The notes below the pieces were generated by a model that was not told the DNA's origin, searched no databases, and was given only the letters and a program-made list of their open reading frames with translations. A DNA stretch of 13,499 nt from contig SKMG01000389.1 in the NCBI GenBank assembly GCA_007121175.1, forward strand, positions 1 through 13,499, in the 5' to 3' direction. The position numbers were made by a program, and so were the translations under genes. This DNA comes from Trueperaceae bacterium (GTDB lineage Bacteria; Deinococcota; Deinococci; Deinococcales; Trueperaceae). Each line of letters starts with the position of its first letter. Within the stretch, counting starts at the first letter, position 1. Shown here in pieces: positions 631 through 9,905 of this stretch.

Positions 631-1938
631 ATGGTCACGCAGAACTCGGCGCACGGGGAGGGGCTCCTGTCACACACGGTCGACACGCTCACGATGGGCC
701 AACAGCCGGTCGAAGCCTCCGAACCCGAACGGACGCCCAACCGGCCTGAGCGCGACGTCTTCGCCAAGGCGTACCGGTACACGCGGGCGGAGGAGGCCAC
801 CGCCCTCGGGCTCCATCCCTACTTCCGTGCGATCGCCGCTCAAGACGGCGGCGTGGTGACGGTCGACGGGCGCGAGATGATCATCACCGGGTCGAACGAC
901 TACCTCGGTCTGACCCAAGATCCTCGACTCAAGCGCGCTGCCAGGGCCGCGCTCGACGACTTCGGCACTTCGTGCACGGGCTCGCGTTTCCTGACCGGCA
1001 CGCTGACACTCCACGAAGAGCTCGAGCTGCGCCTCGCCGCATTCATGCGCAAACCGGCTGCCTTGACCTTCAGCGCCGGTTTCTTGGGATCGCTCTCGGT
1101 CGTCGCGGCGATCGCCGGCCGCCACGACATCCTCTACTACGACCGCGAGAACCACGCCTCGCTGGTCGACGGCGCGCGGCTCTCCTTCGCGACCCTGCGC
1201 AAGTTCGAGCACGGCGACATGGACGACCTAGAGCGGCACCTCGCCCGCGACGCCTCCCGCGGCGGCGGGCGCCTGATCGTCACTGACGGCGTGTTCTCGA
1301 TGAGCGGGCACATCGCCAAGCTACCCGAGATCGTCGCCCTCGCGCGCCGCTACGGGGCGCGGGTGATGGTCGACGACGCCCACGCCTCGGGCGTCCTCGG
1401 CCCGACCGGCCGTGGAACCGCCGAGCACTTCGGCCTCGAAGCGGAGGTCGATCTGATCCTCGGCACCTTCTCGAAGTCCTTCGCATCGGTCGGTGGGTTC
1501 ATCGCGGGCGAGGCCAAGGTCGTCAACTGGATCAAGCACATGGCGCGGCCGTTCATCTTCACCGCCGCGCTGCCCGCCATGCAGATGGCCGCAGTGCTCG
1601 AGGCGCTCGAGATCATGGACGCCGAGCCGTGGCACCGGGAACGGCTCTGGGACAACGTCGGCCTGCTGCACGGCGGTCTTGCGGCACTCGGCTTCGACAC
1701 GCTCGGCACCGAGAGCCCGATCGTGCCCATCCTCATCGGGCCCGACGACCTCGCGATGGCCTTCTGGCGCTCAGCCTGGGATGCCGGCGTGTTCACCACG
1801 CCGGCCCTGCCGCCGAGCGTGCCCGCCGGACGGGCCATCGTGCGCACCAGCGTCAACGCCAACCACACGCGTGAGCAGCTCGAGCGGCTGTTGGAGGTGT
1901 TCGCCGTGGCCGGCCGGGGCCTCGGAGTGATCGCATGA
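631..1938 (+). CDS. spt: Serine palmitoyltransferase-type alpha-oxoamine synthase (PLP enzyme)
   Basis: Predicted to condense an amino acid, most likely L-serine, with a long-chain acyl thioester, giving a 3-keto long-chain base in the cytoplasm; this is the first step of sphingolipid synthesis. The 435-aa protein is a fold-type I PLP enzyme of the AOS family. Visible landmarks: GSNDYLGL (87-94), TGSRFLTGTLTLHEELE (116-132), stacking His175 in ENHASLVDG, DGVFSMSG (219-226), Asp249 and His251 in DDAHASGVLG, and Schiff-base Lys282 in GTFSKSFASVGGF. That last motif resembles SPT-like members more than BioF or KBL (from memory, no alignment). Residues 1-40 are a non-conserved extension; an ATG at 694 would give 414 aa, close to the usual SPT length. 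No biotin or threonine genes are nearby, and the next two genes fit ceramide synthesis. Biotin synthase or another AOS activity is not excluded. Confidence 0.8.
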   Translation: MVTQNSAHGEGLLSHTVDTLTMGQQPVEASEPERTPNRPERDVFAKAYRYTRAEEATALGLHPYFRAIAAQDGGVVTVDGREMIITGSNDYLGLTQDPRLKRAARAALDDFGTSCTGSRFLTGTLTLHEELELRLAAFMRKPAALTFSAGFLGSLSVVAAIAGRHDILYYDRENHASLVDGARLSFATLRKFEHGDMDDLERHLARDASRGGGRLIVTDGVFSMSGHIAKLPEIVALARRYGARVMVDDAHASGVLGPTGRGTAEHFGLEAEVDLILGTFSKSFASVGGFIAGEAKVVNWIKHMARPFIFTAALPAMQMAAVLEALEIMDAEPWHRERLWDNVGLLHGGLAALGFDTLGTESPIVPILIGPDDLAMAFWRSAWDAGVFTTPALPPSVPAGRAIVRTSVNANHTREQLERLLEVFAVAGRGLGVIA

Positions 1939-1964
1939 ACGCCCACTTGCGAGGGCGCGCATGA
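1935..1964 (+). CDS. Nine-codon mini-ORF bridging spt-like and acyltransferase genes
   Basis: ATG at 1935 overlaps the TGA of the spt-like gene (ATGA). The frame runs nine codons (MNAHLRGRA) and stops at TGA 1962-1964, which overlaps the ATG of the next gene at 1961 (again ATGA). Both overlaps are seen directly. Whether it is translated, for example to couple the two genes, is inference. It could be chance. Confidence 0.25.
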   Translation: MNAHLRGRA

Positions 1965-3172
1965 GCGCCGGCCGGGCGGTGCAGCCGAGACCGCGGGGCA
2001 CCGCGCCGCGGCGGAAGAGCTCGGCGCTCGCCGCAGCGCACTCCACGCACCCGGCGGCGGGGACCGTCGAGGTGAGGGCGGTCACTCGCCGCAGCGACCT
2101 TCGCAGCTTCATCGAGTACCCTTTCACACGCTATCGGCACGATCCGTACTGGGTCGCGCCGCTGCTCATCAACGAGTGGCAGCGCTTCGACCCGAAGAAG
2201 AACCCGTTCTTGCAGCACGCCCGTATCGAGCCTTTCCTGGCCGAGCGCGACGGCCGCGTGGTGGGGCGCATCGCCGCGATCGACGACGACCACCACAACG
2301 CCACGCACCGCGACGACCTCGCTTTCTTCGGTTTCTTCGAGGCCGCCGACCAGCAGGCGGCGCATGCGCTCCTGGCCGCCGTGGAGTCGTGGGCCAGAAG
2401 CCTCGGACGCGCCTTGCTGCGAGGTCCGGCCAACCCCAGCATGAACGACGGCTCGGGCTTCCAGATCGACGCGTTCGACACCGTGCCGTTCGTGATGATG
2501 CCCTACAACCCGCCCGACTACCCGCGCTACGTCGAAGCCGCGGGCTACGGCAAGGTCAAGGACCTCTACGCCTGGCACTTCGAGGACGCGCCAGACCTCG
2601 CTCTCAGGATCATCCGGCTCGCCGAACGCGTCGAGCGCCGCTATCGACCCACCGTCCGGCCCCTCGACCCGAAGCACTTCGAGCGCGACCTCGGCCTGCT
2701 CAAGCGCATCTACGCCGAAGCCTGGCAGGACAACTGGGGTTTCGTCCGGTACACCGATGCCGAGTTCGACCACTTGGCGTCGGAGCTCAAGCTCATCATC
2801 GATCCCGAGATCAACCTGTTCATCGAGCTCGGCGGCGAGGTCGCCGGCGTCGCGATCAACCTGCCCGACATCAACCAGGCCCTCCAGAAGGTCCGCGGCC
2901 GGCTCCTGCCCTTCGGCATCTTCACCCTGCTCAACCGGCGCCGGCACATCGACCGGACCCGCCTGCCGATTCTCGGCATCCTGCCGCCGTACCGCATGAA
3001 GGGCCTCGAGCTGGTGCTGATCAAGGAGTCGCTGCTCCGCTGGAGGGCGCGCGGTTACCGCAGCTGCGAGTGCTCGTGGGTGCTCGAGGACAACGAGGCG
3101 ATCAACGCCGGCATCCGTGCCACCGGCGGCCGGCTCTACAAGACCTATCGGCTCTACCAGAAGCCGCTCTAG
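1961..3172 (+). CDS. bcerS: Large GNAT-fold acyltransferase, probable bacterial ceramide synthase
   Basis: Probable N-acyltransferase that would put a fatty acyl chain on the amine of the 3-keto base made by the preceding gene. The protein is 403 aa. Residues 1-34 are an Ala/Arg/Pro-rich non-conserved leader and the conserved core starts near VEVRAV (36-41). Family-like blocks are DPYWVAPLL (61-69), DPKKNPF (77-83), GRVVGRIAAIDDDHHN (98-113), FFGFFEA (122-128), GPANPSMND (155-163), MMPYNPPDYP (179-188), and a C-terminal GNAT-like region with LPPYRMKGLE (341-350) and VLEDNEAINAGIRATGG (374-390). This matches my memory of the large uncharacterised GNAT family to which the Caulobacter ceramide synthase was assigned. 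GAGGG at 1951-1955 serves the ATG; GTG at 2072 is a possible shorter start. The one-nt gap to the next gene shows an operon. The exact substrate is inferred from the neighbours. Confidence 0.7.
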   Translation: MSAGRAVQPRPRGTAPRRKSSALAAAHSTHPAAGTVEVRAVTRRSDLRSFIEYPFTRYRHDPYWVAPLLINEWQRFDPKKNPFLQHARIEPFLAERDGRVVGRIAAIDDDHHNATHRDDLAFFGFFEAADQQAAHALLAAVESWARSLGRALLRGPANPSMNDGSGFQIDAFDTVPFVMMPYNPPDYPRYVEAAGYGKVKDLYAWHFEDAPDLALRIIRLAERVERRYRPTVRPLDPKHFERDLGLLKRIYAEAWQDNWGFVRYTDAEFDHLASELKLIIDPEINLFIELGGEVAGVAINLPDINQALQKVRGRLLPFGIFTLLNRRRHIDRTRLPILGILPPYRMKGLELVLIKESLLRWRARGYRSCECSWVLEDNEAINAGIRATGGRLYKTYRLYQKPL

Positions 3173-3173
3173 G

Positions 3174-4112
3174 GTGCTCGTCCTGGTCACCGGCGCCACC
3201 GGCTTCGTGGGCAGCCACGTGGCCGAGGCGCTCGTCGCACGCGGCTTCGATGTCGCTGCGACCGTGCGGCCGACGAGCGACCAGCGCTGGCTGGTGGGCC
3301 TGCCCCTTACGAGGCGGCAGCTCGACTTCGGCGCACCCGAGCGGCTCGCGCAGGCGCTCGACGGCGTCGAGGCGCTCGTCCACGTCGCCGGCATCACCCG
3401 CGCGAGGCGTGACGCGGACTACCGGAGCGTCAACGCCGACGGCACGCGCGCCGTGCTGCAGGCCGCGGCGGCAGCAGGCGTGAAGCGCTGCGTCCTGATC
3501 TCGTCGATGGCGGCTCGTGGGCCCGACGGTGCACAGGGGCCGCAGAGCCCATACGGACACTCGAAACTGGCGGCCGAGCACGTCGCCGCGAGCTTCGAAG
3601 GCAGGCTTGCGATCGACGTGCTACGGGTCGCCGGGGTGTACGGTCCGCGCGACACCGACCTGCTGCCGCTGTTCCGCTTGGCTCGCAGCGGAGCGCTGCT
3701 CCTGCCGCCGCGCGCGGGCCGGCTGCAGCCGGTGTTCGCCGCCGACGTGGCCGAGCTCGTCACCGGACTGATCGAGCGCCGCCTAGGCTTCGGACCCTGG
3801 CCGGTGGCCGAAGCGCGCTCCTACGGCTGGGACGAGCTGGCCGAGCTGCTCAGCGCGGCGCTCGGCCGTCGGGTGCGCTCGCTGCACGCGCCGCGAGCGG
3901 TCTTCCTGGCCGCCGCCGGTGCCTCCGAGGGGGTCGCGGCGCTGCTCGGCAGCGCACCGACGCTCGACCGCCGGCGGGCGCTCGACATCACCGACAGCTA
4001 CACCTGCGACGTCTCGGCGACCGAGTCGGCGTCGGGTTGGTGTGCCCGCACCGGGCTGGCGGAGGGACTCGAGCGCACCGTGCGCTGGTACCGCGAGCGC
4101 GGCTGGCTCTAG
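3174..4112 (+). CDS. cerR: NAD(P)-dependent epimerase/dehydratase-family reductase, probable ceramide reductase
   Basis: Extended short-chain dehydrogenase/reductase. In this context it probably reduces the 3-keto group of the acylated long-chain base to give a ceramide, as proposed for CerR in Caulobacter. The GTG start one nt after the previous stop gives 312 aa and places the Rossmann motif [10 protein letters not shown] at residues 6-15, the normal N-terminal position. An earlier in-frame ATG at 3117 would only add a translation of the upstream gene's end. Catalytic features: Ser110/Ser111 in [10 protein letters not shown] and Y127-x3-K131 in [19 protein letters not shown] (151-162) is the usual substrate-loop block of this family. 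Its stop overlaps that of the converging isomerase gene. A sugar or steroid-type epimerase function is possible by sequence alone; the operon position is the argument for ceramide. Confidence 0.72.
4109..4112. other. Overlapping convergent stop codons (CTAG)
   Basis: The palindrome CTAG holds TAG of the plus-strand reductase gene (4110-4112) and TAG of the minus-strand isomerase gene (4109-4111). No bases are left between the two genes for a separate terminator. Confidence 0.95.
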
Positions 4113-5734
4113 CCGCTGCCGATCGCCACCTCGCCGCACAGGTGCACGCTCACCCCCAGTTCCGCGAACGCTGCGGCCTTGGCTCCAAGGGCGCGGTCGG
4201 CATCGCCGGCCGACGGGGCGTACGCGACCTGGACGTGATTCGCCTGGTGCCGCGCCATCATCGCATCGCGGCTCACGCCGTGCAGCACCGCGTGCATGAT
4301 CGGCCACTCGGGCGTGGTGGCGTCGCGGCGCCGGCGCGTCTCCTGGTCGGGCAGTGCCACAGCGCTGCCGCGGCCGAGATCGAGGTGGAGCGCTCCGCCC
4401 TCGACGAACGCCCGCGACCAGACGAACTCACCGGGCCTGCACACGCCGGCGAGGGTGCTGCCGCCGAGCGGGAAGTACATCGCGGGCTGCCGGTGACCCT
4501 CGGCGCCGGCGTAACCGCCCTGGAGGTGCGACGCGGGAACGGCGCCCGAGATCTCGAAGACCCACACGAAGTCGTCGAGACCCTCGCCGCGGTAGTGCTC
4601 GCCCCAGCGCAGGTCGTGCAGTGTCGTCGAGGGATCGAAACCGAGCTCGTGCCAGACGCGGTTCGTCACCAGGGCGTCGAGCGCGGCGCCCTCGTCGACC
4701 TCGTTGAAGTGCGGCAGCGCCCGACCGGGGTACAGCTCGCGCGTGCCCTCGGCGTCGAACACCGGCGGCCGGTTGGGATCGTTGAGCAGCCCTTCGACCA
4801 AGTCGCTCGCGGGCGCCATGTCCTTGAGGCCCTGCTGGTACTGGATGCCGATCGCGTCGCAGCCGAAGCGGTCGGCGATGCGCAGCGCCGCGACGTACAT
4901 CCGGCACTGCTCGAGCACCTGCGCGTCGGTGAGCTCGCTCGACTCGTCGCTGCCGGTGAAGAAGGTCATGCCGGCGTCATCGAGCCAGGCGCGCACGGCC
5001 AGCGCGTCGGCGTCCGCGACGGTGCGCATCTCCGCGACCAGCGCCGACTGGCTCAGGCGCTCCTTGTAGATGCCGAGCGCATTGAGCAGCTCGTCGTCGA
5101 TGATGGCGTTGTACATGCCCATGCAGCCCTCGTCGAAGACCCCCAGGATCGCCTTGTCGCGATCCAAGCCGGCGGCGAGGCGGCGCCCGAGCTCGCGCGC
5201 AGGGGCATCGAGGGCGTCCGGATCGAGCGGACGCACGTGGCTCAGGTCATGCCGCACGCTGCGGTGCGCGATCCACTCGCGCAGGCCGGCCAGGAACGCC
5301 TGATCGTCGAAGCGCTCGCTCCACAGGCGGCTGTAGGGGACCCCGGCCTTGGTCAGCGAGCCGCTCAGGTTCAGCATGCCGACCAGTCCCGGCCACTGTC
5401 CGCTCCAGTTCGCGACCAGCAGGATCGGCGCGCGGTGGCTCCGGAGGCCCGCGAGCAGGTGATGCGAGTACTGCCAGACAGCCACCGCCACCACCACCGG
5501 CTGATCGCGCGGGATCTGGGCAAACACGTCCATGCCCATCCGCTGGCTGGAGATGAAGCCGTGACCCTGGTCGACGTCGAGTGGGTGGGCACGCCGCAGC
5601 TCGACGCCCTCGGTCGCGAACGCCGCAGTGAGGTCGCGCTCCATCGCCGATTGGGCCGGCCAACCGGCGCGGTTGGCAGCGACGCGCAGGTCGCCGCTGG
5701 CGACGAGGAGGGCCTGTCGGATCGGACGTTCCAT
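4109..5734 (-). CDS. L-fucose/L-arabinose isomerase-like protein
   Basis: Cytoplasmic protein of the FucI/AraA-type isomerase family, which interconverts aldoses and ketoses with a divalent metal. The chosen start gives 541 aa; GAAGGG lies 8 nt upstream, and an ATG 15 codons earlier lacks such a site. Visible blocks: [10 protein letters not shown] (201-210) with candidate metal ligand Glu202, [14 protein letters not shown] (292-305), [13 protein letters not shown] (344-356), and NHVQVAYA near the C-terminus with His500 in the place of the family's C-terminal metal His. The 541-aa length is slightly below that of E. coli FucI (about 590). No kinase or aldolase of the classical fucose pathway is adjacent; instead a DapA-type lyase is divergently transcribed. 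The substrate may therefore not be fucose, and some relatives are uncharacterised. Metal-ligand assignments are by pattern only. Confidence 0.72.
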
Positions 5735-5742
5735 CGCTACAT

Positions 5743-5748
5743 CCCTTC
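5743..5748 (-). promoter_or_regulatory. Ribosome binding site of the isomerase-like gene
   Basis: GAAGGG on the minus strand, 8 nt before the ATG at 5734. It supports this start over the ATG 45 bp further upstream. Confidence 0.6.
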
Positions 5749-5774
5749 GTGTGCGCGCGCTGAAGCGCACGTCC

Positions 5775-5780
5775 AGCATA
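5775..5780 (-). promoter_or_regulatory. Possible -10 box for the isomerase-like gene
   Basis: TATGCT on the minus strand, about 40 bp upstream of the start codon. It matches four of six consensus bases. No -35 box is visible at 16-18 bp, so this is a weak call. Confidence 0.25.
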
Positions 5781-5795
5781 CGTCGCGCTCGCCGA

Positions 5796-5821
5796 CCGGC
5801 CGCCTAGCGCCTGGCGGCCGG
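5796..5821. repeat. Perfect 9-bp inverted repeat in divergent control region
   Basis: CCGGCCGCC at 5796-5804 and GGCGGCCGG at 5813-5821 form a perfect 9-bp stem with an 8-nt loop (TAGCGCCT). It has no T-run, lies between divergent genes and sits upstream of both starts. It may be an operator, a leader hairpin or an insulating structure. Its role is unknown. Confidence 0.5.
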
Positions 5822-5842
5822 CGACTCCCGCTCGGGCCTTCC

Positions 5843-5858
5843 TGTGGTACGGACCACA
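5843..5858. promoter_or_regulatory. Candidate operator, inverted repeat TGTGGT-N4-ACCACA
   Basis: Perfect 6-bp arms separated by ACGG, ending 6 bp before the TTGACA box of the plus-strand promoter candidate. The TGGT...ACCA core resembles sites of FadR-subfamily GntR regulators of sugar-acid catabolism (family knowledge). No regulator gene lies in the window, so the assignment is inferred. Confidence 0.45.
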
Positions 5859-5864
5859 CGCACC

Positions 5865-5894
5865 TTGACACCCTCGGCGGCCCAACGCGATGAT
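5865..5894 (+). promoter_or_regulatory. Candidate sigma70-type promoter for aldolase and transporter genes
   Basis: TTGACA (5865-5870) is a perfect -35 box. GATGAT (5889-5894) lies 18 bp further on and matches four of six -10 bases. Transcription would start near 5901, leaving a leader of about 65 nt before the ATG at 5967. Confidence 0.5.
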
Positions 5895-5953
5895 CGCTTG
5901 GTCAGCGCCATGGCGGAGTCCGAGCCGGTCGGGCTCGCTTCGTCGCGCCGACC

Positions 5954-5960
5954 GGGAGGG
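5954..5960 (+). promoter_or_regulatory. Ribosome binding site deciding the aldolase start
   Basis: GGGAGGG with 6 nt before ATG 5967. It rules against the longer in-frame starts at 5844 and 5910, which would add a non-conserved leader. Confidence 0.8.
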
Positions 5961-5966
5961 ACACCC

Positions 5967-6884
5967 ATGCGCATCCACGGTGTGGTCGCGCCACCACCGA
6001 CACCGCTCGATCGCGACGGCATCGAGCTCGACCTCGCGGCGATCCCCAGGGTCGTCGAGTACCTCGCGGCGGGCGGCGTCCACGGCGTCTTCGTGAACGG
6101 CACCACCGGCGAGGGCTCGCTGCTCACGGTCGACGAGCGTGAGCGCACCGCCGAAGCGTTCGCCGCCGCGGCGAGGGGCCGGCTCGCGATGATCGTCCAC
6201 GTCGGCGACGCCAGTACCAGCGTTGCGGTACGGCTGGCCAGGCACGCTTCCTCGGTCGGTGCAGACGGCGTTGCCGTGGTCGCCCCGTTCTACTTCGAGC
6301 ACGACCAGGAAGCCTTGGAGCGCCACGTGCGGGCGGTCGCCGAGGCGACCGCACTGCCGACCTTCCTGTACGACATCCCGGCCCGCACCACCAACAGCTT
6401 CGGTCTCGAGCTCACCCGCCGGCTCTACCGGGACGGGATCGTGGTCGGCTCCAAGGACTCGAGCGGTAACCTCCCGCGGATGCTGGACATGCTCGACCTA
6501 GGTGGGTTCCAACTCCTGACCGGCGCCGACTACCTGGCGCTCACGACCTTGCAGGCCGGGGCCTCGGGGCTCGTGACCGGTCCGGGCTGCGTCTTCCCCG
6601 AGCCGTTCGTGAGGCTGTGGGACAGCTTCGAGAGCGGCGACCTCGCCGAGGCTGCACGCTGGCAGCGTGCGGTGCTGATGACGACGCGGGTGCTCGCCTT
6701 CGGCGGCGATCTGCCACTGCTGAAGGCTGCTCTGGGACTCGTGGCCGGCGGCCTCGGCGGCCCCCGCATGCCGCATGCCGAGACGCCGCCGGAGCGGCTC
6801 CGAACGGTCGTTGGTCAACTCGCCGACATCGCCGAGAGCTTCGGCCTGCGCGAAGCGAGCGAACGCTTCGCAGGCCACCGTTGA
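5967..6884 (+). CDS. DapA/NanA-family aldolase or dehydratase (dihydrodipicolinate synthase superfamily)
   Basis: Class I lyase of the dihydrodipicolinate synthase/N-acetylneuraminate lyase superfamily: a TIM barrel using a Lys-pyruvate Schiff base, acting in the cytoplasm. The 305-aa length is normal for the family. Key residues: GTTGE at 45-49, Tyr135 in FLYDIPARTTN (DapA Tyr133 equivalent) and Schiff-base Lys163 in GSKDSSGNL. Position next to a carboxylate transporter and opposite a sugar isomerase suggests a catabolic role, such as cleaving or dehydrating a 2-keto-3-deoxy sugar acid, rather than lysine synthesis. No other lysine genes are visible. The true substrate cannot be read from the sequence. 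A strong inverted repeat is embedded in the last codons. Confidence 0.88.
   Translation: MRIHGVVAPPPTPLDRDGIELDLAAIPRVVEYLAAGGVHGVFVNGTTGEGSLLTVDERERTAEAFAAAARGRLAMIVHVGDASTSVAVRLARHASSVGADGVAVVAPFYFEHDQEALERHVRAVAEATALPTFLYDIPARTTNSFGLELTRRLYRDGIVVGSKDSSGNLPRMLDMLDLGGFQLLTGADYLALTTLQAGASGLVTGPGCVFPEPFVRLWDSFESGDLAEAARWQRAVLMTTRVLAFGGDLPLLKAALGLVAGGLGGPRMPHAETPPERLRTVVGQLADIAESFGLREASERFAGHR
6843..6876 (+). terminator. Strong stem-loop inside the 3' end of the aldolase gene
   Basis: GGCCTGCG (6843-6850) plus AAGCG (6853-6857) pair with CGCTTCGCAGGCC (6864-6876), giving 13 pairs with a 2-nt bulge and a 6-nt loop. It ends 5 nt before the stop codon. No T-run follows, so full termination is doubtful; attenuation or 3' protection is possible. 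Confidence 0.35.
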
Positions 6885-6903
6885 CCGTCCACTTCCCGGT
6901 CCG

Positions 6904-6929
6904 CCTTCGTCCGCGCGCGGACCCGAAGG
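6904..6929. repeat. Bulged inverted repeat between aldolase and tctC
   Basis: CCTTCG (6904-6909) and CGAAGG (6924-6929) flank the self-complementary TCCGCGCGCGGA (6910-6921), with CC (6922-6923) unpaired. It could be an operator, or a GC-only terminator that lowers read-through into the transporter genes. No T-run is present. Confidence 0.4.
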
Positions 6930-6974
6930 GGGGTGATCGTACCGACCTGCCGTCGCCCTGAACCACCGTTGGCT

Positions 6975-6995
6975 CCGGCCGCCCCCGGCGGCTGG
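6975..6995 (+). other. Leader stem-loop upstream of tctC
   Basis: GCCGCC (6978-6983) and GGCGGC (6987-6992) form a 6-bp stem around CCC, extended to 9 pairs through one G-U pair. It lies 15 nt before the AGGAGG site of tctC. It may stabilise the 5' end of the transporter message (inference). Confidence 0.35.
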
Positions 6996-7025
6996 CTGAC
7001 CTACTCTCACAGGAGGACTCAACGC

Positions 7026-7982
7026 ATGAAGCGTATGTTGACACTGCTCGCCGCCCTCGCACTCGCCGGTGCCGCCCTGGCGCAGGCCTTCCCCACCCGC
7101 CCCATCACCTTCACAGTGCCGTGGTCGCCCGGCGGCGGCACCGACACCGCCTCGCGCACGCTCGCGGCGATGCTCAACGAAGGGCTCGGCGTGACCGTCA
7201 ACGTCGTCAACCGCACCGGCGGCGGCGGCGTCGTCGGACACCTCGCGCTGGCGCAGGCGCAGGCCAACGGCTACACGATCGGTGCCATCACGGTCGAGAT
7301 CACCATGCTGCCGCACATCGGCCAGACGGATCTCACCTACGAGGACTACACCCCGCTGGGCCTGATGATCAACAACCCCTCCGCGGTCAGTGTGCGGGCC
7401 GACGCGCCCTGGGAGACGCTCGACGAGTTGCTCGAGCACATCCGCGCCAATCCCGGCGAGCTGCAGGCCTCCGGCACCGCCATGGGGGGCATCTGGGATC
7501 TCGCGCGCATCGGCATGCTCGACGTTGCGGGGATCGACCCCGACGCCATGCCGTGGGTTCCGAGCCAGGGCGCCGCGCCGGCGTTCCAGGAGCTCTTGGC
7601 CGGCGGCGTCGACGTGGTAACGGCCGCGCTGGCCGAGGCCGCGCCGCTGATGCAAGCCGGTGAAGTGCGCGTGCTGGGCGTGATGGCGCCCGAGCGCATC
7701 GGCCGCTTCCCCGACGTCCCTACCCTCACCGAGCTCGGGCTGGAATGGAGCATCGGTGGCTGGGCCGGCGTGGCCGCGCCCGCGAACATCCCTGACGAGG
7801 TGCGCGCCGTGCTGGCCGAGGCGATCGAGGAAGCGATGGCGTCGCCCGAGTTCGTCGACCCGCTGACGCAGGCCGGTTTCACCCTCCAGCCGATGAACGC
7901 CGACGAGTTCTCGACGTTCGTCCAGACACAGCACGAGGTCAACGGCCGCCTGCTGCGGCTTGCCGGCGTGGTCGAGGACTAG
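7026..7982 (+). CDS. tctC: Tripartite tricarboxylate transporter substrate-binding protein (TctC/Bug family)
   Basis: Periplasmic solute-binding protein that captures a carboxylate and delivers it to the TctAB membrane proteins. The 318-aa product starts with a signal peptide (MKRMLTLLAALALAGAALA, likely cut after residue 19); there is no lipobox Cys. The mature start QAFPTRPITFTVPWSPGGG (20-38) is typical of Bug proteins, followed by NRTGGGGVVGH (62-72), one of the ligand-binding loops. AGGAGG at 7011-7016 lies 9 nt before the ATG. In-frame sequence upstream, from 6933, lacks such a site and would disrupt the signal peptide. Bug proteins bind diverse di- or tricarboxylates, aromatic acids or sugar acids; the ligand is not known here. 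It is first of three tightly packed transporter genes. Confidence 0.93.
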   Translation: MKRMLTLLAALALAGAALAQAFPTRPITFTVPWSPGGGTDTASRTLAAMLNEGLGVTVNVVNRTGGGGVVGHLALAQAQANGYTIGAITVEITMLPHIGQTDLTYEDYTPLGLMINNPSAVSVRADAPWETLDELLEHIRANPGELQASGTAMGGIWDLARIGMLDVAGIDPDAMPWVPSQGAAPAFQELLAGGVDVVTAALAEAAPLMQAGEVRVLGVMAPERIGRFPDVPTLTELGLEWSIGGWAGVAAPANIPDEVRAVLAEAIEEAMASPEFVDPLTQAGFTLQPMNADEFSTFVQTQHEVNGRLLRLAGVVED

Positions 7983-7983
7983 C

Positions 7984-8433
7984 GTGGAGCGGCCCCGGGT
8001 GTCCGATGTCGTGTTCGGCGCGGCCTTCGCCCTCGCCGGGATCCTGATCTGGGTCGAGACGCGCGGTTTCCCGACGCTGCGTGACGGACACCCGGGGCCG
8101 GCGCTCTTCCCCGGCCTCGTGTCGATCGCCCTCGCCATCTGCGGCGCGGCACTGCTGGTCGGCGGCCTGCGGCAGCCCCGGCGGCTCGCCGCGGAGTACC
8201 GCAGCCTCAGCGTGCCGATCGCTCCCTTGTCGAGGGTAGCGCTGGTCGTCGTCTTGGGGCTCCTCTACCCGCTGCTGCACGCCCAGATCGGCTTCGTGCC
8301 GACCTCGGCCGCGCTGATCTTCGGCGTTGCCGTCGTCTTGCGCGCCAACCTCCTGGTGGCGGCGGTCACGACCGCGGCGAGCACCGCGATCATCTACTAC
8401 GCCTTCACCCGAGCGCTCGGAGTGCCGCTGTGA
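7984..8433 (+). CDS. tctB: Tripartite tricarboxylate transporter small membrane subunit (TctB)
   Basis: Small inner-membrane subunit that pairs with TctA. The GTG start lies one nt after the tctC stop and gives 149 aa with four or five hydrophobic helices (roughly 8-25, 41-61, 84-100 and 103-140, the last probably two). The N-terminal HPGPALFPGLVS motif (36-47) is characteristic of TctB. Sequence conservation in this family is low, but order and size fit. The gene ends in GTGA, so its stop overlaps the tctA start by 4 nt, indicating translational coupling. Confidence 0.9.
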   Translation: MERPRVSDVVFGAAFALAGILIWVETRGFPTLRDGHPGPALFPGLVSIALAICGAALLVGGLRQPRRLAAEYRSLSVPIAPLSRVALVVVLGLLYPLLHAQIGFVPTSAALIFGVAVVLRANLLVAAVTTAASTAIIYYAFTRALGVPL

Positions 8434-9905
8434 CCGAACTCTTCACCTGGCCTGCCCTGGTGGCCCTGGCGGCCGGCGGTCTGTACGGCGCCGTGTTCGG
8501 CTCCGTCCCGGGCCTGACCGCGACCCTGGCCGTGGCGCTGTTCATCCCGATCGCTTTCTTCCTCGATCCGATCCTGGCGCTCCCCGCCATCATCTCGATC
8601 TCGGCGGTCGCAATCTACGCCGGCGACGTCGGCTCGGTCATCGCCAAGATCCCCGGCACGCCGGCGTCGGCGGCCTACGTCGAGGAGCTGCACGGGCTCT
8701 CGCGCCGGCGCGGGCCCGGCTACGGACTCGGTATCAGCGCCATGGGTAGCGCCGTGGGCGGCATCATCGGCACGGCGCTGCTGATCTTCAGCGCCACCAG
8801 CCTCGCGGCAGTCGCCAAGAACTTCTCTTCGTTCGAGTATTTCTGGATCGCCGTGCTCGGCCTCACCGCCGGCATCTTCGCCTCGAGCGGCTCGTCGCTC
8901 AAGGCGCTCGTATCGCTGCTCATCGGCGTGATGTTCTCGACCGCGGGCATCGATCCCACGCTCGGCTATGCCCGCTTCGACTTCGGCAACCCGAACCTGC
9001 TCGGCGGGCTCAACTACATCGTCGCGATGATCGGCCTGTTCGGCTTCAGTGAAGTGCTGCAGAACGTCTTCGCCCGGGGCGAGGTGGCCGGCACCATGCC
9101 GGCCGACAAGGGCGCGCCGCTGCGCCAGTTCTTCGTCCGGCCGGTGCTGCTGATGCTGCGCAACAAGCTGCTGGTCGTGCGGTCGTCGCTGATCGGGACC
9201 TTCGTCGGCTTCCTGCCCGGCGCCGGGGCCGACATCGGCGCGTGGGTGGCGAGCTCCTTCGAGAAGCTCTCCGGCCGCCGCGGCGACGCCGATACCGAGG
9301 AGGAAGACCGCGTGGTGCTCGCGGGTACCAGCAGCAACAACGCAGCGGTCGCGAGCGCCTGGATCCCGGCGCTGTCTCTGGGGTTGCCCGGCGACACGGT
9401 TACGGCCATCGTGTTGGGCGTGTTCATGATGAAGGGCATCACGCCGGGGCCGATGCTGTTCGAGCAGCAGGCGACGCTGGTGTGGTCGCTGTTCGGCGCC
9501 TTCCTCATCGCCAACCTCGTGCTGCTGCCGCTGTTCGGCTTCCTGACCGCACGGATCGCCACCGTCGTGGTGCGCATCCCACTGAACTTGCTGCTCGGCG
9601 TCATCGCCGGACTCTGCGTGGTCGGCGCGTATGCCATCAACAACAACCCGTTCGACGTCTTCGTGATGGTCGCGATGGGCGTGTTCGCGTTCCTGCTGCG
9701 CATCGGCGGCTTCCCGCTGGCGCAGGTGGTGCTCGGCATGGTGCTGGGCCCGATCCTCGAGCAGAACTTCATGGTCAGCGCCATCAAGTCGCGCTGGGAC
9801 CTCATGGCGTTCTTCGACCGGCCGATCGCGATCGGCCTGATGATCGGGACCGTCATCGTCATCGCCATCGGCGTCCGCATCAAGGCCCGCGCCGCGCGCG
9901 CCTAA
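8430..9905 (+). CDS. tctA: Tripartite tricarboxylate transporter large membrane subunit (TctA)
   Basis: The 12-helix-type permease of the TTT system, 491 aa, close to the usual 500. It uses ion gradients to import the carboxylate bound by TctC (family knowledge). Family motifs: GAVFGSVPGLTATLAVAL (20-37), IPGTPASAA (73-81), FLPGAGADIGAW (252-263), GTSSNNAAVASAWIPALSLG (292-311) followed directly by LPGD and later KGITPGP. The GTG start shares four bases with the tctB stop. The gene ends in TAA. Nothing is truncated, so the transporter set is complete. Confidence 0.95.
   Translation: MTELFTWPALVALAAGGLYGAVFGSVPGLTATLAVALFIPIAFFLDPILALPAIISISAVAIYAGDVGSVIAKIPGTPASAAYVEELHGLSRRRGPGYGLGISAMGSAVGGIIGTALLIFSATSLAAVAKNFSSFEYFWIAVLGLTAGIFASSGSSLKALVSLLIGVMFSTAGIDPTLGYARFDFGNPNLLGGLNYIVAMIGLFGFSEVLQNVFARGEVAGTMPADKGAPLRQFFVRPVLLMLRNKLLVVRSSLIGTFVGFLPGAGADIGAWVASSFEKLSGRRGDADTEEEDRVVLAGTSSNNAAVASAWIPALSLGLPGDTVTAIVLGVFMMKGITPGPMLFEQQATLVWSLFGAFLIANLVLLPLFGFLTARIATVVVRIPLNLLLGVIAGLCVVGAYAINNNPFDVFVMVAMGVFAFLLRIGGFPLAQVVLGMVLGPILEQNFMVSAIKSRWDLMAFFDRPIAIGLMIGTVIVIAIGVRIKARAARA

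Follow-up and report, generated by a model that had tools for sequence, protein, structure and literature searches.

A three-gene locus in a Trueperaceae contig

Contig SKMG01000389.1 (assembly GCA_007121175.1) of a Trueperaceae bacterium was analysed over its entire length of 13,499 nucleotides (nt), hereafter called the window; the source draft genome is 2.55 Mb in size and 78% complete. Three adjacent genes on the forward strand, together spanning positions 631 to 4112, encode proteins that resemble serine palmitoyltransferase (SPT), the bacterial ceramide synthase bCerS and the ceramide reductase CerR. An initial annotation had proposed that these genes form a compact operon for a complete ceramide pathway. 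The anatomy on which this proposal was built, three adjacent genes with junctions of 22 nt and 1 nt, is confirmed.

The first gene, spt (631..1938, + strand), runs from ATG to TGA and encodes an SPT-type alpha-oxoamine synthase of 435 amino acids. The start at 631 is uncertain because the frame stays open upstream to position 541; homology to related proteins begins at residues 9-42 in full-length matches. A gap of 22 nt (1939..1960), in which a GAGGG stretch precedes the next ATG, leads to the gene for a bCerS-type N-acyltransferase with a predicted tandem-GNAT architecture (1961..3172, + strand, ATG to TAG, 403 amino acids). A single nucleotide separates this gene from that for a CerR-type extended short-chain dehydrogenase/reductase (SDR; 3174..4112, + strand, GTG to TAG, 312 amino acids). 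All three open reading frames are uninterrupted and would presumably be co-transcribed. Their GC content at third codon positions (GC3) is 0.89-0.92, as against 0.86-0.94 in seven other measured window genes. Pfam assigns the three products to Aminotran_1_2 (198.8 bits), Acetyltransf_1 (23.6 bits, barely above the cut-off of 20.7) and Epimerase (90.5 bits), respectively.

Ceramide is a fat once thought to be mostly eukaryotic. We consider it likely that the trio encodes a bacterial pathway to the ceramide backbone. In the first step, Spt would join an acyl thioester (probably acyl-CoA) to an amino acid, for which L-serine is the likeliest candidate, in a condensation that yields a 3-keto long-chain base. 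The bCerS-type enzyme would then place a second acyl chain on the amino group of this base, and the CerR-type enzyme would use NAD(P)H to reduce the 3-keto function, giving a dihydroceramide. Acylation before reduction has been argued by Uchendu and colleagues (PMC11087976), and the order of these reactions is contested in the literature (PMC11087976, PMC11324152).

No match to AasR or AcpR was found at a threshold of 1e-4 in the window and 38 stretches of its order, which represent neighbourhoods rather than whole genomes. This result makes acyl-CoA the likelier acyl donor, as has been reported for Bacteroidetes (PMC11324152). With no AasR or AcpR match near the locus, the description of the pathway as complete is unproven.

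Relationships of the three encoded enzymes

The standards used for comparison were the set of sphingolipid proteins from E. coli BL21(DE3) and the clusters carried by proteobacterial plasmids. The window Spt is 39% identical to BL21(DE3) Spt over 370 columns. Its top matches in the PDB are structures of Sphingobacterium SPT (8guh and 3a2b, 368 bits). Scores are lower for 7poa from T. thermophilus, which is named as BioF/KBL (295 bits), for cysteate acyltransferase 28eh (272 bits) and for E. coli KBL (259 bits). Sphingobacterium SPT is thus the best solved relative of the window protein, and it forms a separate branch from it in the tree.

At the 17 aligned site positions of S. multivorum SPT, 15 residues are identical in the window Spt. 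Residues N52, Y54, G80, S81, H138, S185, D210, A212 and H213 are kept, as is GTFSKS, the motif carrying the lysine for pyridoxal 5'-phosphate (PLP), which has been described as characteristic of SPT (PMC10196870). In the non-SPT proteins compared, E. coli Kbl carries S-V at positions 80-81 and GTLGKA, BioF carries VTFGKG, and 7poa carries A-V and ATLSKA.

The two exceptions, A79 and M271, are close to the substrate and are T and I, respectively, in the window protein. These changes would fit a scenario in which the same three reactions are performed on alanine, glycine or cysteate to produce 1-deoxyceramides or sulfonolipid-like N-acyl bases. The S. multivorum enzyme can use alanine and glycine, albeit inefficiently (PMC10196870), and cysteate acyltransferase 28eh is also related to Spt. 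However, the same T and I are present in SPT-type enzymes of proteobacterial clusters, and the score for SPT is clearly above that for cysteate acyltransferase. We therefore regard the use of these other amino acids as unlikely and retain ceramide as the expected type of product.

In a tree prepared without rows L057_paralog, L111 and L117, 40 SPT-type rows split from six KBL/BioF rows and three paralogs with a branch support of 90/75. The window Spt accordingly appears to group with the solved SPTs rather than with BioF/KBL, with moderate support. Two other genomes of the window's genus (G002 and G005) encode, in addition to Spt, a distinct protein whose place in the tree is with E. coli Kbl.

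The second protein is a predicted tandem-GNAT protein that shows homology along almost all of its sequence to CerS proteins from proteobacterial sphingolipid clusters, including YghO of E. coli BL21(DE3). It aligns with BL21(DE3) YghO at 32% identity over 377 columns (368 of 403 residues aligned). Among the matches listed, plasmid proteins from Roseomonas, Diaphorobacter, Sphingomonas and Pseudomonas are 33-39% identical over 91-92% of the query. Residues W255, N258, W259 and G260 of the window protein are shared with all five proteobacterial CerS proteins compared. The structure was predicted from an input of 39 sequences, comprising the window protein, 21 of 120 listed proteins and the products of 17 of 25 loci, and residues 1-31 were modelled with low confidence. 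As a separate observation, genome G006, which is of the window's genus, carries another bCerS-like gene (36%; L096 8254-9402; G006:C127:22148-23392) on the contig that holds its trio, with one TAG codon within the scored match.

The third protein carries a nucleotide-binding motif and a catalytic YxxxK (TGATGFVG and YGHSK), as well as WYRERGW near its C-terminus. Its NCBIfam matches are general (HpnA, 101 bits against a cut-off of 368), and it is 31% identical to BL21(DE3) CerR over 289 columns. In the SDR tree it lies within a CerR clade of 20 rows with support 96/97. When rows L068_G013_13757, L136 and L120 were dropped and BL21 CerR was added, to give a set of 46 rows, this clade comprised 21 rows with support 88/95, and was not starred. 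L120, a cyanobacterial SDR linked to bCerS, had been placed outside the CerR clade. No obvious signal peptide was seen in the window SDR by eye or by hydropathy, with no dedicated predictor run; Caulobacter CerR has been reported to be periplasmic (PMC11087976).

A search of plasmids with the window SDR was evaluated for the best 12 of 477 matched records, ranked by the product of coverage and identity. The top nine reductases among these comprise that of a Rubrobacter trio (52%), one from Sphingomonas located beside an acyl carrier protein and a PLP enzyme (37%), and six from Roseomonas and one from Diaphorobacter (33-37%). A bCerS-like gene is also present on all nine of these plasmids. By E-value, some lower-ranked rows among the 12 equal some of the top nine.

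Several findings weigh against assignment of the trio to ceramide synthesis. For the window Spt, all NCBIfam SPT models score under their cut-offs, though an SPT model ranks first (SerpalmtaseCFB, 442 against 640; other SPT models, 375 against 500 and 310 against 670), and for this reason the protein is named SPT-type rather than an equivalog of those models. GTFSKS also occurs, accompanied by V at position 81, in two of the three paralogs that do not fall on the SPT side of the tree, and a Nostoc protein called SPT by similarity is reported to have produced no 3-ketodihydrosphingosine (PMC8895605). bCerS-like genes (36%) are present in G007 (L093 7794-8918) and G023 (L094 3953-5092) without any SPT-like match, which indicates that membership of the GNAT family is no specific sign of ceramide synthesis; its members may act on other substrates. 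The gene order also differs in G005, where one of two unjoined contigs carries bcerS followed by spt and the other carries spt followed by the SDR gene. Finally, forcing 25 window-type rows to group with KBL/BioF costs 19.4 log units and yields a p value of 0.084 in the approximately unbiased (AU) test, such that this alternative is not rejected.

This last result would be compatible with a PLP enzyme of the KBL/BioF kind in a trio whose product is a different N-acyl amino-ketone derivative, for instance a small-molecule natural product, as would the presence of a condensation-domain gene after the trio in Streptomyces sp. NBC_01001. We judge this quite unlikely, given the SPT-type residues of the enzyme, its place in the best tree, the distinct KBL-type protein encoded in two genomes of the genus, and an SDR whose CerR clade is common to proteobacterial sphingolipid clusters. 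The trees, the active-site residues and the similarity to the corresponding proteins of E. coli BL21 bear out the Spt, bCerS and CerR types named in the initial annotation, with moderate support from the SPT tree. The PLP enzyme stands apart from BioF/KBL in the best tree, with the opposite grouping not rejected by the AU test.

Recurrence of the trio within and beyond its genus

Contiguous spt, bcerS and SDR genes are also found in G006 and G002, both of the window's genus, and within this genus the proteins of the trio share 57-83% identity. The recurrence of the three genes together argues that their association is not due to chance. The surrounding genes differ within the genus, with one neighbourhood in G002 and G005 and another in G000 and G006. 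The GNAT gene has no match in three of the seven genomes of the genus, and these three are 83-91% complete.

These differences, together with the small size of the trio relative to the locus found in many other genera of the family, are features that a decayed or silent acquired block without a product might exhibit. Such a block is very improbable here, since the three frames are open, their GC3 resembles that of their neighbours, the first and third enzymes retain the catalytic residues that were compared, and the proteins are conserved across the genus to the extent given above.

The genes that flank the trio in the window begin with a partial ABC permease gene upstream of spt. Downstream, a fucose-isomerase-like gene (4109-5779; Pfam scores under cut-offs) is convergent to the trio and overlaps the end of the SDR gene by 4 nt. 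It is followed, up to position 9905, by a dihydrodipicolinate synthase-family gene and a TctC-TctB-TctA tripartite tricarboxylate transporter. This region (4109-9905), whose order of fucose-isomerase-like, dihydrodipicolinate synthase-family and transporter genes is the same in G006, resembles a unit for uptake and breakdown that has no relation to the trio. The remainder of the contig (10040-13499) encodes a subtilase that contains a divergent InlB B-repeat domain and then a leucine-rich repeat protein that is truncated at the contig end.

The initial annotation considered an uninterrupted trio to be notable. Adjacent spt, bcerS and SDR genes, in that order, were found in five of 25 genome loci (L100, L101, L102, L104 and L113), of which L100 is from the window's own genus and L113 has an overlap of 167 nt between its first two called frames. 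They were also found in two of the six plasmid regions examined first. The trio is present in Rubrobacter, Streptomyces, Sphingobacterium and other records, and its rarity is therefore rejected. The accompanying remark that the Caulobacter genes reside in one region among other genes agrees with PMC11324152. In the Rhodobacteria, a five-gene dihydroceramide set (aasR, cerR, acpR, spt and cerS, as in C. crescentus and E. coli BL21) includes homologues of the window Spt, CerS and CerR. Unlike that set, the window has no aasR or acpR match beside its genes, and its bcerS sits between spt and cerR. The trio order shared by the window, Rubrobacter and Sphingobacterium thus departs from the arrangement in Rhodobacteria.

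Among the closest trios outside Deinococcota is that on the Rubrobacter radiotolerans plasmid NZ_CP007515 (L125 7710-13302), which has the same gene order and tight junctions, with GNAT and SDR proteins 64% and 52% identical to those of the window. It differs in belonging to another phylum and in its next gene, annotated as LTA synthase family (Pfam Sulfatase), whose product could attach a phosphoglycerol head group. The Rubrobacter Spt and bCerS fall within Trueperaceae clades, without a settled exact position, hinting at transfer between phyla. On the Streptomyces sp. NBC_01001 plasmid (L126 5766-10292) the junctions of the trio overlap, and the locus, with its condensation-domain gene, is possibly for a sphingoid-based natural product.

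The bacterial ceramide recipe is already known, and what is new here is the trio in Trueperaceae and the apparent exchange of reductases described below. Black Sea genomes representing 38 phyla are reported to carry ceramide genes, 'often found clustered' (PMC11334938); the main text of that report does not name Deinococcota, which its supplements could list. The sphingolipid genes in PMC6801134 concern a whole community. A literature search by title and start of abstract identified, among the papers listed, no report of sphingolipids made by Deinococcota, the phylum raised as a possibility for the host in the initial annotation and the one to which Trueperaceae indeed belong.

Reductases and larger loci across Trueperaceae

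The GNAT protein was searched in 61 genomes, of which 30 have a match. Matches at an E-value of 1e-100 or better occur in 22 of the 37 genomes of the window's family. A second family of the order has a match in all four of its genomes (41-42% identity), and the other 20 genomes of the order have a single weak match (2.1e-4).

Among these 22 Trueperaceae genomes, all with the orthologous acyltransferase, a CerR-type reductase accompanies the spt-bcerS pair in five (G000, G002, G005, G006 and G035, with G005 and G035 spread over two unjoined contigs), and the G035 reductase (L097) falls in the CerR clade. In 14 others of the 22, a different SDR occupies the place of the reductase. Twelve of these were identified from fetched loci, and two (G025 and G030) were assigned by position and score rather than by the tree. 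The best NCBIfam model for the one example scanned is OleD (145 bits against a cut-off of 580), and a CPBP-family gene precedes this SDR in all 12 fetched loci. Such a locus (for example in G018) is like the window in its orthologous Spt and bCerS, and unlike it in its different SDR, the CPBP-family gene ahead of it and the glycosyltransferase behind it.

In the remaining genomes, the pair runs to a contig end in G016, and neither reductase type adjoins it in G014 and G022. Genes like the second SDR type exist elsewhere in the genomes of G016 (39%) and G014 (33%). G022, a single contig, has adjacent spt and bcerS genes but no match to either reductase type above 39.1 bits anywhere in its genome.

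The 12 reductases of the second type form their own clade with support 100/100. A single reductase clade across Trueperaceae, uniting these SDRs with those of the window's genus, is rejected (p-AU 1.35e-59). A joint clade of both types relative to other SDRs gives p-AU values of 0.166 with 48 rows and 0.0196 with the 46-row set. When the second type was searched for in the four trio genomes, the best match was the trio reductase itself, and weak; matches in G035 are weak too. Elsewhere in the family, matches to the window reductase are no better than 4.4e-21.

G015 carries the second SDR type. In the bCerS tree, built without rows L098 (cut) and L095 (fused), it is sister to CerR-type G002 with support 100/99. 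In an SPT tree that still contained the invalid row L057_paralog, G015 lies outside the window's genus, next to its four rows (98/88 and 100/99). Either placement means that close relatives differ in their reductase.

This swap of reductases inside a single family is the finding that specialists may not anticipate. It also weakens the suggestion that gene order mirrors reaction order, along with the bcerS-before-spt arrangement in G005. If the assignments are correct, the swap would offer a naturally occurring test case for the contested order and location of the reduction step, and the envelope of a Deinococcota family would contain ceramide lipids. Truepera is a radiation-resistant bacterium. 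We put forward tentatively, and with somewhat less than even confidence, that Trueperaceae including T. radiovictrix make glycosylated ceramides with iso/anteiso chains, reduced by one of two SDR lineages (CerR, or an OleD-like SDR with CPBP) behind the same Spt-bCerS pair.

All 12 fetched loci with the second SDR type contain a GT28/MGDG-synthase-like glycosyltransferase gene. An LPG_synthase_TM flippase-like protein is encoded in seven, an FtsX/MacB permease in nine, an MMPL protein in four and a UDP-galactopyranose mutase in three, with some of the stretches ending before the place where these genes would be expected. In many other Trueperaceae genera the spt-bcerS pair heads a larger locus that includes a glycosyltransferase, commonly together with a flippase-like protein and an FtsX/MacB-type exporter. 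Judged from this gene linkage, the ceramide of these genera probably receives a sugar and is transported outward. The window's genome has a permease-ATPase pair (52% and 62%) on contig C199 and a glycosyltransferase (42%) on contig C71, both away from the trio. In G018 (L067 7515-15310), the UDP-galactopyranose mutase gene lies between the glycosyltransferase and flippase-like genes, which suggests galactofuranosyl ceramide as the product of that locus.

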